DNA of 64,000 nt from Microbacterium sp. USTB-Y (GTDB lineage: Bacteria; Actinomycetota; Actinomycetes; Actinomycetales; Microbacteriaceae), in NCBI RefSeq assembly GCF_023703415.1, contig NZ_JAGMTU010000001.1, forward strand, positions 248,001 to 312,000, read 5' to 3'. Shown here piece after piece: positions 20,458-24,019 of the stretch (position 1 is the stretch's first letter; every line of letters begins with the position of its first letter). The translations under genes were made by a program, and so were the position numbers. The notes beneath the pieces are model-generated. The model was not told the origin of the DNA. It saw only the letters and a program-made list of their open reading frames with translations, and searched no databases.

Positions 20458-22373
20458 GCCTGCACCTCCTCTGCTTCTGTGCGCTCTTCGACGGGCTCGG
20501 AGCCCCCTTCGGGTGGCTCGGAGCCGCCTTCGTCGTGTTCGGCCACCGTGATGACGGGGATCGCTCCGGTGCGCACCGCCTCCTCCGCCTCCAGGCTGGA
20601 GATCACATGGCGGTAGTGCGCATTCGTGCGCAGCAGCTCGGAGTGCGTGCCCACGGCCGTCACCCTCCCGTCCTGCAGCAGCGCGACGCGGTCTGCCAGG
20701 GCCACGGTCGACGGGCGGTGCGCGACGATGAGCGCCGTGGTCTCGGCGAGCACGTGGCGCAGCGCCTCCTCGACGAGCGCCTCGGTGTCGACGTCGAGCG
20801 CGGACAGCGGGTCGTCCAGCACGAGCACCTTGGGCGACGCGGCCACGGCGCGCGCGAGGGCGAGCCGCTGGCGCTGACCGCCGGACAGGCTCATGCCCTC
20901 CTCGCCGATCATCGTCTCGACGCCCTCCGGGAGCGCGTCGACGAACGAGGCCTGAGCGACGTCGAGCGCCTCGCGGAGCACGCGCTCCGCCTCCGGGCTG
21001 CGGATGTCCAGATCGGCCCGGCCGAGCAGCACGTTCTCCCGCACGGTCGCCGAGAACAGCGTCGCGTCCTCGAACGCCATGGCGATGTGCGTGCGCAGCT
21101 CCGCCAGGGTGAGGTCGCGCACGTCCACGCCGTCGAGCGTCACGCGTCCTCCCGTCACGTCGTACAGACGCGTCGGAAGTGTCGTGAGCGTGGTCTTGCC
21201 GGATCCGGTGATGCCGACCAGCGCCATCGTCTCCCCCGGCCGCAGCACGAGATCGATGCCGTCGAGCAGGTCGCGCTCGTGCGGCCGGGCGTCCTGATAG
21301 CGGAACCGGGCGCCCTCGAACGCGAGCTCGCCGCGCGGCTCGGCGATGGTGACCGGGTTCTCCGGGTCGGTGATCGTGTTCTGCTCGTCGTAGATCTCGA
21401 ACACCCGATCGGTGGCCGTGCGCGCGTCGAGCATGAACGAGAACAGGAAGCCGATCGACTCGATCGGCCAGCGCAGCACGGTCGCCATCGCGAAGTACGC
21501 GAAGAGCTCGGGCGCGTTCAGCGCTCCCTGGGCGATCAGCCAGATGCCCGCGACGAGGTTCAGCGCGAACGCGATCTCGGGCATGAGCACGAGCCAGAAC
21601 CAGATCCAGCCCACCGAGCGCGCCTTGCTCAGCTCGGTCTCGCGGAGGGACTCGGCCTGCCGGGCGAACTTGACCAGGGCGTGCTTGCCGCGTCCGAACG
21701 CCTTGAGCACGCGGATGCCGTGCACGCTCTCCTCGACGCTCGTGGCGAGGTCGCCGGCCTGGTCCTGGCTGCGCCGCGTGAGCACGCCGTAGCGCTTCTC
21801 GAAGAGGAAGCCCGAGATCCACAGCGGCACGGCCGTGATCAGGAAGATCGTGCCGAGCAGCCAGTGCCAGCGGAACAGCAGGGCGGCGCCGATGACGATC
21901 GTGAGCAGGTTGACGACGAGCAGCACGAGGCCGAACGCCAGCCAGCGGCGGATCAGGCCGATGTCCTGCATCATGCGGCTCAGCAGCTGTCCGGACTGCC
22001 AGCGGTCGTGGAAGGCGACCGGGAGGCGCTGCAGGTTGGAGTACAGCTGCGTGCGCATGCGGTACTCCACCTGCGTCGCGGGGTTCAGCACGAACTGGCG
22101 GCGCAGCCACACCATGAGCGCCTCGCCGAGGGCGAGCACGGTCACGGCCACGGCGCCCCAGACGATGGCGCCGATCTCGCCGGTCGCGATGGGGCCTTCG
22201 AGCACGACCTGCAGCAGCAGCGGCACGCACAGCGCGATGACGGCGGCGGCGAGCGCCGAGAGCCCGCCGCCGACCAGGCGCCAGGCGACCGGTCTGACGA
22301 AGGGCGCCAGGCGCGCGAGCGCGCGGGGAGTGGACAGGGAGGAGGCGGATGAGGGCGTGGTGTGTTCAGACAT
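20454..22373 (-). CDS. ABC exporter half-transporter, subunit A (degenerate ATPase site)
   Basis: 639 aa: transmembrane domain ([40 protein letters not shown] and further helices) and ATPase domain with Walker [10 protein letters not shown], canonical signature [14 protein letters not shown], and Walker [13 protein letters not shown], in which the usual catalytic Glu is Asp. It therefore supplies the non-hydrolytic site of a heterodimer with the next gene. Start ATG 22373 has only a weak ribosome site. The gene has a long leader (22374-22611) with its own promoter, a short ORF and a hairpin, suggesting regulated expression, perhaps by ribosome-targeting compounds as known for several actinobacterial ABC genes. 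Confidence 0.92.
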
Positions 22374-22461
22374 GATTCTCAGAAGTGACGTATCGCGGCA
22401 ACGGAGGGAAGGGACGAGAAGGAGCGGATGCGATGCATCCGTGCGATGAGCGGCCGGTGTG

Positions 22462-22495
22462 GGCCGAGGAGGACCGGAGCGGTCAGTCCTCGGCC
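22462..22495 (-). terminator. Attenuator-like hairpin overlapping the leader ORF stop codon
   Basis: Read leftward, GGCCGAGGA (22495-22487) pairs with TCCTCGGCC (22470-22462), and inside it GACCG (22484-22480) pairs with CGGTC (22476-22472). The 5' arm contains the last sense codons of the leader ORF and its TGA lies at the base of the inner stem, so a ribosome there would open the hairpin. No T tract follows. Confidence 0.6.
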
Positions 22496-22554
22496 GGGGT
22501 GAGGGGCGAACCGGTGACAGCGCTGATCGACGACGCAGTGGTGATCGTGGGCAT
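22483..22554 (-). CDS. 23-aa leader peptide ORF upstream of the ABC exporter
   Basis: ATG 22554 follows a near-perfect ribosome site (GAGGAGG, 5 nt spacing) and is read for 23 codons, giving MPTITTASS...TPAED, rich in Thr/Ser with three acidic residues near the end only. It is transcribed from a good promoter about 45 nt upstream. The strength of the ribosome site compared with the weak one of the exporter gene argues that it is translated. Its end lies within a hairpin. It may be a regulatory leader peptide; an independent small protein or exported peptide is also possible. No homologue is known to me. Confidence 0.6.
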
Positions 22555-22605
22555 GGTGTCCTCCTCGGTTCGACGGCCGCCGGTCGGTTGACGCGACAGC
22601 CGTCC

Positions 22606-22635
22606 AGCCTATGTTCGGGATCCACGGGAGCGCAA
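22606..22635 (-). promoter_or_regulatory. Promoter of the ABC exporter leader
   Basis: Read leftward: -35 TTGCGC (22635-22630), 18-bp spacer, -10 TAGGCT (22611-22606). Expected start near 22599, giving a ~45-nt 5' region before the leader ORF. One of the best housekeeping-type promoters visible in the window. Confidence 0.65.
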
Positions 22636-22858
22636 GCGTTTTCCCGAAATCGGTCTCACGGTCCCGCGGCACCGGCCGCGGGCGCCGCGTCGGGGCGATT
22701 CTCCGGTGCGAGGGGGAACGCCCCGCCGCCCGGATCCCTTCCCTGCCGGCCCGATCGTCGGATCGGATCAAACGGGGCAGCGGGTTTCGGTCGAGCGGAC
22801 AGTCGGGCGGCTCCCGGGCCTCAGCAGGATGGGACCACCCCCATCCGAAGGAGCCGCC

Positions 22859-24019
22859 ATGCCGGAACCCGTCGAGACGATGGTCGCGGAGATCCTGCGC
22901 CTCGTCCGCTGCGAGTCGCCGTCGGACGACCTCGCCGCCGTCGCCCGCAGCGCCGACGCCGTGGCCGAACTGGGCACGACCCGCCTCGGCGCGGTGCCGG
23001 AGCGGATCGTCATCGACGGACGCACCCATCTGCGCTGGCGCTTCGACGGCGCACCGCGGATCCTCGTGCTCGGCCATCACGACACGGTGTGGCCGGTCGG
23101 ATCCCTCGACGAGCTCCCCGCCCGAGCCGACGACGAGACCCTCGCCGGCCCCGGTTCCTTCGACATGAAGGCCGGGCTGGTCATCGCCTTCCACGCGCTG
23201 AGCCGGCTGACCGACCTGGCCGGGATCACCGTGCTCGTGACCGGCGACGAGGAACCCGGCTCGGCGACCTCGCGGGCGCTCATCGAGGATGAGGCGCGTG
23301 CCTCGATCGCCGCCCTCGTGCTCGAGGCCGCGGGTCCGGACGGCGCTCTGAAGATCGCCCGCAAGGGGGTCTCCCGCTACGAGATCGCGGTGCACGGCCG
23401 GGCGTCGCACGCCGGGCTCGACCCCGAGCGGGGCGTGAACGCCACCCTGGAGCTCGCGCACCAGGTGCAGGCCGTCGCCCTCCTCGGCGACGCCGCGGCG
23501 GGCACCACGGTCACCCCGACGCGCACGAGCTCGGGCACGACGACGAACACCGTCCCGGCGCTGGCCTCGTTCTCGGTCGACGTGCGCGCCCTCTCCGCCG
23601 CGGAGCAGGAGCGCGTGCATGCCGGGATGCTCGCGCTCAGCCCCCGGATCGACGGCGCCCGCGTCGTGGTCGACGGCGGTGTCAACCGCTCCCCCCTTGC
23701 CGCAGACTCGTCCGCCGAGCTGTTCCGCCGGGCGCAGCGCGTCGCGGATCGGCTCGCGCTGCCCCCGCTCACCGGGATCAGCGTCGGCGGAGCCTCGGAC
23801 GGCAACTTCACCGCCGGCGTCGGCACGCCCACGCTCGACGGCCTCGGTGCCGTCGGCGGCGGCGCCCACGCCGCGCACGAGCACGTGCTGATCGCCGAGC
23901 TCGAGCCCCGGGTGCGGCTGCTCGCCGGTCTCATCGACGACCTCCGCGCCGCGCCGCCCGGCCCGCCCGCGCCGGCCGCGTCCTCGACGCGGGCCCCGAT
24001 CTCGAGCACGGCCCGATGA
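22859..24019 (+). CDS. M20-family metallohydrolase, probable N-acyl (N-succinyl) amino acid hydrolase
   Basis: 386 aa of the M20/ArgE/CPG2 family. Zinc motifs: LVLGHHDTVWPVG (His and Asp), FDMKAGLVIA (bridging Asp), VTGDEEPGSATSR (catalytic Glu pair), LEAAGPDG, and the C-terminal GGGAHAAHEHV His ligand. The dimerisation domain starts at GRASHAGLDPERGVNA. Start ATG 22859 follows AAGGAGCCGCC. It overlaps the next gene by 4 nt. Followed by a GNAT protein and a racemase of the N-acylamino-acid racemase type, it is a good candidate for the L-desuccinylase of the D-to-L amino acid conversion pathway described in Geobacillus kaustophilus; a carboxypeptidase G2-like role is the alternative. Confidence 0.85.
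   Translation: MPEPVETMVAEILRLVRCESPSDDLAAVARSADAVAELGTTRLGAVPERIVIDGRTHLRWRFDGAPRILVLGHHDTVWPVGSLDELPARADDETLAGPGSFDMKAGLVIAFHALSRLTDLAGITVLVTGDEEPGSATSRALIEDEARASIAALVLEAAGPDGALKIARKGVSRYEIAVHGRASHAGLDPERGVNATLELAHQVQAVALLGDAAAGTTVTPTRTSSGTTTNTVPALASFSVDVRALSAAEQERVHAGMLALSPRIDGARVVVDGGVNRSPLAADSSAELFRRAQRVADRLALPPLTGISVGGASDGNFTAGVGTPTLDGLGAVGGGAHAAHEHVLIAELEPRVRLLAGLIDDLRAAPPGPPAPAASSTRAPISSTAR

Follow-up and report, generated by a model that had tools for sequence, protein, structure and literature searches.

In the bmrB/bmrCD system of Bacillus subtilis, drug-induced transcription of a multidrug ABC transporter is described as requiring translation of a leader, a short ORF directly in front of the operon that encodes the heterodimeric exporter. 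The bmrB leader lies within alternative RNA structures, and the ribosome translating it is the proposed sensor (PMC4191407). In Streptomyces lincolnensis, lmrC is controlled by uORF2, which overlaps a terminator, and loss of the uORF2 start leads to constitutive expression (PMC8546547). The uORF of whiB7/wblC in actinobacteria is reported to respond to many ribosome inhibitors, as cited in PMC12121999 and PMC13236596. Escherichia coli toiL is reported to sense several drug classes, with Rho termination following from repression of translation (PMC12121999), and leader ORFs with attenuation, partly involving Rho, are described for mycobacteria (PMC12810186, PMC13236596).

Here we analyze a leader in Microbacterium sp. 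USTB-Y. The window, by which we mean the whole 64,000-nt stretch of DNA under study, holds on its reverse strand, in this order, a dedicated promoter, a leader ORF, a hairpin, and an ABC exporter with a weak ribosome site. We consider bmrB/bmrCD the closest described system in function: in both, a short leader ORF directly precedes a heterodimeric ABC exporter operon and the translating ribosome is the proposed sensor, and the alternative RNA structures of the bmrB leader have predicted counterparts here. However, as described in PMC4191407, bmrB has 53 codons and contains an intrinsic terminator inside its coding region, whereas the leader here has 23 codons and a hairpin that covers only the last of them, with no U-tract. 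The two systems also belong to different phyla, and drug induction, which has been demonstrated for bmrB, is a prediction for the present leader. The lmrC region is likewise actinobacterial, with a uORF that partly overlaps a terminator hairpin before a resistance gene and acts by ribosome-mediated attenuation, but lmrC encodes an ABC-F protein rather than an exporter, and its terminator was shown by mutation (PMC8546547). The whiB7/wblC ORF is an actinobacterial leader as well, but one that controls a transcription factor (PMC12121999, PMC13236596). In toiL-topAI, the uORF pairs with the downstream ribosome site (PMC12121999), which provides a model for some relatives of the window (clade A, below). 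In the window's own species group, by contrast, the exporter start is predicted to be open, and pairing of the toiL type is missing.

In the open-access literature, searched by titles and the starts of abstracts, we found no description of such a leader in Microbacterium or Microbacteriaceae. On balance, our results favor the reading that the conserved leader is a ribosome-mediated attenuator of a heterodimeric ABC exporter, probably transcriptional and Rho-assisted, and similar to bmrB/bmrCD. If so, it would be an actinobacterial leader-ORF attenuator on a heterodimeric drug exporter, a counterpart of B. subtilis bmrCD, and would couple an intrinsic Microbacteriaceae pump directly to ribosome status.

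Organization of the locus

The features of the locus are collected in Table 1. To judge from their sequences, P0001 and P0002, which lie downstream, each encode one half of a heterodimeric ABC exporter of the multidrug type, as in bmrCD. P0001 has ABC transmembrane and ATPase domains, and a TM_0288 chain is among its bacterial relatives of known structure. In its Walker B motif, Asp has replaced the catalytic Glu (VLVLDD), while the motif of P0002 is canonical (VLILDE), and we take such a degenerate-plus-canonical pair to be the pattern of heterodimeric exporters.

Table 1. Features of the leader and exporter locus, in the direction of transcription (positions in the window)
Feature	Position	Strand	Basis or remark
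-35 box TTGCGC	22630..22635	-	sequence; TTG conserved
-10 box TAGGCT	22606..22611	-	18-nt spacer from -35 box
Start-site element GGCTGTCGCG	22592..22601	-	presumed transcript 5′ end; putative start site
Pre-SD segment CGAACCG	22566..22572	-	complementary to 22513-22507 (leader codons 14-16)
Leader ribosome-binding site CCGAGGAGGAC (segment 1)	22558..22568	-	contains GAGGAGG 22566-22560
Leader ORF, 23 codons	22483..22554	-	sequence; conserved in genus
Two-part hairpin over last leader codons and stop (segments 2 and 3)	22462..22495	-	folding
GUCCUCCUCGG, perfect 11-bp complement of leader ribosome site CCGAGGAGGAC	22464..22474	-	alternative partner of hairpin 3′ arm
Second hairpin CGGATGC-ATC-GCATCCG	22425..22441	-	sequence
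C-rich, G-poor spacer, leader stop to exporter	22374..22482	-	C 0.45, G 0.20
ABC exporter half 1, P0001, 639 aa	20454..22373	-	catalytic Walker B Glu replaced
ABC exporter half 2, P0002, 602 aa	18649..20457	-	canonical Walker B; overlaps end of half 1

The promoter lies where a sequence-only reading of the window had placed it, with the arrangement TTGCGC-18-TAGGCT. That reading had also called it a good promoter, a judgment that does not stand, given that each box matches the consensus at only 3/6 positions and that the promoter is absent from the list produced by a simple sigma-70 scan of the window. Its support comes from conservation rather than from consensus. Indeed, TTG is found 16-19 nt from the -10 box in 119/119 leader-bearing loci of the genus (110 of them at 18 nt) and is in place in 45/46 leader-bearing loci of other genera, against 1/119 and 0/46, respectively, at a control position 30 nt further upstream. 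The -35 box is outside the rule by which leaders were found (below), and the -10 box, as TAnnnT, is inside it. TAGGCT is the -10 box of 70/119 leader-bearing genus loci, the others having TAGTCT, TACTCT, TATCCT, and similar hexamers. When 99 genus genomes were scanned for the start-site element together with the -10 box, allowing up to one mismatch, 51 of them gave a total of 52 places, and 51 of the 52 lie, by coordinates, just upstream of the exporter. In the window's own genome, the element has one exact place and one with three mismatches, and a reversed-pattern control has four.

A divergent gene for an M20-family peptidase (22706-24019, forward strand) adjoins the promoter region. In several relatives, another gene ends there, which by eye, from its motifs, we take to be methylguanine methyltransferase-like or PurH-like. 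Because the gene that ends at the promoter side differs between relatives, leader and exporter seem to move as a unit.

The two start sites are of very different strength, as had been claimed from the sequence for the window itself. The 23-codon ORF with its GAGGAGG site is present, and 106/119 genus leaders are preceded by a 6-nt match to AGGAGG. The exporter ATG at 22373 stands behind UUCUGAGAAUC (also written UUCUGAGAAUCAUG), and the weakness of its ribosome site is borne out both in the window and in its relatives: within 20 nt of the ATG, the match is at most 4 nt in 119/119 genus loci and in 36/37 loci of other genera with a recognizable ATG, and at the normal distance (-16 to -5), the longest match in the genus is 3 nt. 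Exporter ribosome sites, spacer composition, exporter-start pairing, and openness were all computed at the exporter ATG, and the 9/46 other-genus loci without an in-frame ATG were excluded from the ribosome-site, spacer, and pairing statistics. A short ORF with its own ribosome site thus lies between the promoter and the presumably regulated gene, which is the arrangement found in ribosome-mediated attenuators.

Conservation and natural absence of the leader

A match to the exporter protein (E up to 0.001) was present in 149/149 genus genomes, and nearly all matches were close and full-length. Three genomes were not used (two with partial matches, one without a close ortholog), and five of the 146 loci read were excluded because they are cut by contig ends, leaving 141; one further genus locus, L177, has a visible leader and stands outside the count. 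Leaders were called by a fixed rule that demands TAnnnT, 3-6 nt, and GGCT, followed by a ribosome site, ATG or GTG, and an ORF of 12-50 codons with no fewer than 40 nt between its end and the exporter match.

Conservation of the ORF in relatives had been set beforehand as a check on the attenuator reading, and the ORF passed it. By the fixed rule, a leader precedes the orthologous exporter in 119/141 Microbacterium loci, where shuffling of the sequence behind the promoter in these 119 gives a chance expectation of 1.1, and in 46/87 loci of other Microbacteriaceae (0.8 expected, again in shuffles of the leader-bearing ones). The latter comprise 26/34 loci of genera near Microbacterium (0.5 expected) and 20/53 of more distant genera of the family (0.25 expected), rates that depend on the choice of loci: the 34 near loci are the 28 closest hits and six others, five of one genus, and the 53 represent 53 genera, one of which is already among the first. 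Two of the 20 distant-genus matches, L211 and L234, are doubtful. Outside Microbacteriaceae, 0/16 loci have a leader by this rule, of which the family's promoter is itself a part. Among 80 named loci, a set that overlaps the 141, two were too short and 71 of the 78 readable ones have the leader; M. azadirachtae and Microbacterium sp. 8M are among the named records nearest to the window.

The 22/141 genus loci that fail the rule fall into three classes. Five have a leader by eye with a variant promoter (L005, L089, L094, L096, and L155), two are masked by N (L104 and L129), and 15 have no leader. In the leaderless loci, the exporter is kept along with a promoter-like element, which lies 54-123 nt ahead of the exporter match; the leader is thus dispensable. 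A clean loss is seen in L128 compared with L130, whose flanks are closely alike: the deletion reaches from behind the start-site element to the mid-spacer hairpin, removing the leader ORF and its ribosome site while keeping the promoter, the start-site element, and the mid-spacer hairpin. Such natural deletions limit the claim made for the leader, yet they also provide a natural experiment.

By eye, the orthologs L189, L190, L191, L195, and L196 from outside the family are leaderless with a short 5′UTR, in which an inverted repeat, GTAGTTGCTA..GAAACTAC, stands just before the exporter start.

Hairpins and predicted competing pairings

In the window, the end of the leader is predicted to fold into a two-part hairpin whose 5′ arm holds the last codons and the stop of the ORF, just as the sequence-only reading had it. 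The outer stem, GGCCGAGGA/UCCUCGGCC, joins 22495-22487 with 22470-22462, the inner stem, GACCG/CGGUC, joins 22484-22480 with 22476-22472, and the UGA stop sits at the junction of the two. The stretch folds with -25.6 kcal/mol compared to -13.0 ± 2.7 kcal/mol for shuffled sequences (z -4.74; 0/200 as good). For the whole leader RNA, z is -2.0, with 5/200 shuffles as good. In a milder test, which sets the ORF end against shuffled versions of the C-rich spacer, the window reaches no more than z -1.3.

A like hairpin is found in seven near relatives with z from -3.6 to -0.9, the weakest being those of the most diverged, L263 and L265. The inner stem shows compensating changes, reading GACCG/CGGUC in the window, GAACCG/CGGUUC in L258, and GAUCCG/CGGAUC in L265. 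The hairpin alignment covers nine loci, eight of which were folded (all except L259); it leaves aside L002, L003, L262, and L314, which have extra hairpins inserted into the window-type hairpin, and L004 and L264, which fold differently. Across 88 genus representatives, however, the ORF end and the spacer pair no better than shuffled sequences do (mean z +0.21 ± 0.10, kinship ignored), and a mechanism based on the ORF-end hairpin is therefore not family-wide. The earlier proposal of a ribosome-sensing attenuator is thus upheld in its parts and in the conservation of its ORF, while its hairpin persists, with compensating changes, only among near relatives. The associated claim that a ribosome at the end of the ORF would prevent the hairpin has the right geometry in the window's species group, but cannot describe the mechanism of the family.

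By sequence, the 3′ arm of the hairpin is predicted to have two mutually exclusive partners, namely the ORF end and the leader ribosome site. Pairing of GUCCUCCUCGG with CCGAGGAGGAC gives -24.3 kcal/mol (z -4.0 against the shuffled spacer), and a ribosome on the last leader codons would leave the 3′ arm only this second partner. With kinship ignored, pairing between leader site and spacer has a mean z of -0.41 ± 0.12 in the genus and +0.31 ± 0.18 in other genera, from which we take it to be a matter of the genus.

Further downstream, 26 leaders of clade A, recognizable by peptides of the form MTTIA..GSTPVRPLR, have a longer mid-spacer hairpin with the same outer arms as the window's second hairpin. 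In this hairpin, 97.7% of cells are paired, and 4/12 pairs have changed on both sides compared with 1.6 in shuffles, a value reached by 1/500 of them; the number of pair types is not above shuffles. As far as the sequences tell, hairpins between leader and exporter recur, but they are not one and the same hairpin. Rfam has no match in 22300-22700 at E up to 5. An RNAalifold consensus for the 5′UTR and leader of 36 loci gave a weak fold with 0/9 pairs changed on both sides, and we make no claim for it.

Termination and accessibility of the exporter start

There are no terminator-like sites in 22300-22800, and with no U-tract present, the region lacks a recognizable intrinsic terminator. Throughout the genus, the longest T run in the spacers has a median of 2 nt, and 29/119 spacers have five T within some 8 nt. 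Because of the missing U-tract, termination would probably be Rho-assisted. The C skew of the spacers is +0.30 (genus) and +0.28 (other genera), whereas upstream of the promoter it is approximately zero; that of the window's spacer, +0.38, is matched by 0.12% of the window's 120-nt stretches (both strands). A C-rich spacer of this composition suits Rho, without being proof of Rho loading.

The leader might instead regulate translation, as in erm or toiL. In such a scheme, the leader region would pair with the exporter start, a ribosome on the leader would set that start free, and transcription would not be the primary target. Clade A speaks for it, in that the leader ribosome site and the exporter start of these relatives, GAGGAGGACA and UGUCUUCCUC, are complementary. 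In predictions, blocking the leader start makes the exporter start more open, with a gain above 0.1 in 10/11 clade A loci and 25/88 genus representatives, and pairing of the leader site with the exporter start has a mean z of -0.73 ± 0.17 across the 88 (kinship ignored). The scheme fits poorly elsewhere: predictions for the window's group leave the exporter start open anyway (0.57), so that the downstream site is not hidden, and 0/4 loci respond to a ribosome on the leader start; among representatives of other genera, 0/21 respond. We therefore consider it unlikely that translation attenuation explains the leader as a whole. Since hiding of the start is predicted for clade A but not for the window's group, transcription attenuation is our preferred reading for the window, with translation attenuation being possible for clade A.

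The segment ACGAAACTCGTCTGAGAGACATGTCTTCCTCG, from -25 to +12 nt around the exporter start, is nearly invariant in 26 clade A loci (L007-L029, L060, and L122-L124), and its conservation exceeds that of the remaining spacer. This may be explained only in part by pairing with the leader ribosome site, because L127, which has no leader, keeps the same exporter start; the sequence thus seems to have another reason too.

Constraint on the peptide and on the RNA

Another possibility is that the product of the leader matters, either as a small protein with a function of its own or as a specific arrest peptide that is recognized in the exit tunnel. The peptides are recognizable within clades and are enriched in Ala, Thr, and Ser (0.20, 0.09, and 0.07, compared to 0.11, 0.06, and 0.05 in the exporter), residues that favor chloramphenicol-type stalls. 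However, the pN/pS ratio in five groups of leaders of equal length is 1.24 (21 distinct sequences), 2.66 (4, the window's group), 3.21 (4), 1.14 (11), and 0.65 (6), and thus above 1 in 4/5 groups; the exporter control of 0.57 comes from an ungapped alignment and is rough. Furthermore, when the true frame is compared with shifted frames, coding constraint in the leader is no clearer in the true one. In 18 species, the leader shows fewer synonymous differences than the exporter does (0.157 versus 0.392, again a rough control), which points to constraint on the RNA, with RNA pairing as one reason, and the Gly-Ser codons of the leader coincide with an RNA helix. Taken at face value, these ratios speak against a specific peptide, which makes a dedicated product very unlikely; the peptide itself is not the conserved thing, and it would be the act of translating, rather than what is translated, that matters.

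One pairing that could account for such constraint links the pre-SD segment to the leader codons. In the window, CGAACCG pairs with CGGUUCG over 7 bp; in clade A, CGAGCC pairs with GGCUCG in codons 13-14; and in L012 and L126, UUCGAGCC pairs with GGCUCGAA at the corresponding places. Across 88 genus representatives, this pairing is better than in shuffles (mean z -0.67 ± 0.12, kinship ignored), while in 24 representatives of other genera it is not above shuffles (mean z +0.17 ± 0.24, kinship likewise ignored).

Three further tests were set aside. A swapped-partner test ranked the pairing of pre-SD segment and ORF end first (z -3.8, others up to +8), but some exporter segments were misplaced in it, and we treat the outcome as a mere hint. 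That 98/98 gaps within the ORF are multiples of three is circular as evidence of translation, because every ORF length is a multiple of three. A freer gap test (83/185 in the ORF, 28/269 in the 5′UTR, and 230/1098 in the spacer) has partly the same flaw and was not used for this purpose.

Finally, the 15/141 leaderless genus loci and the 33/53 more distant-genus loci that fail the rule might point to the ORF as a passive relic, with a 5′ part that goes untranslated or unregulated and sets only mRNA stability or basal expression, but we give this little credence, since a strong ribosome site, ORF, and promoter are kept in most of the genus against about one expected, and the helices show compensating changes.

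Proposed mechanism

For the window, we thus return to transcription attenuation governed by the ribosome on the leader. The dedicated promoter would give rise to an RNA with a single strong ribosome site, that of a leader ORF of approximately 20-35 codons. In an unstressed cell, ribosomes would pass the leader quickly and the RNA behind them would fold; in the window, the last codons and the stop would pair with the 3′ arm at 22476-22462, and RNA polymerase would then tend to stop in the C-rich untranslated spacer. A drug or starvation that slows ribosomes in the leader would change this outcome, because a ribosome on the last codons would hold the hairpin open. The 3′ arm, thus freed, could turn to the leader ribosome-binding site, by then vacated, as its pairing partner, and transcription of the operon would go ahead. 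In this scheme, leader translation, Rho-assisted termination, and induction by translation inhibitors are what we infer from the arrangement of these parts.

A broader version can be put forward tentatively, although we doubt that it holds in full. The leader may be a translation-stress sensor throughout Microbacteriaceae for which the peptide is irrelevant, with a fast-evolving leader reporting the progress of the ribosome to a Rho-dependent stop in the C-rich spacer and the leader ribosome site serving as the switch strand. The folds would be rebuilt from clade to clade, while the logic of promoter, strong leader start, and weak exporter start would be kept. The family offers a natural set for such questions, consisting of many leaders with varied peptides and folds and of close species with and without a leader, which allows one to ask whether the peptide, the hairpin, or mere translation carries the signal.

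Elsewhere in the window, Rfam has a single match, a ZMP/ZTP riboswitch at 828-910 on the reverse strand (RF01750, 53 bits). The gene behind it reads by eye as serine hydroxymethyltransferase.
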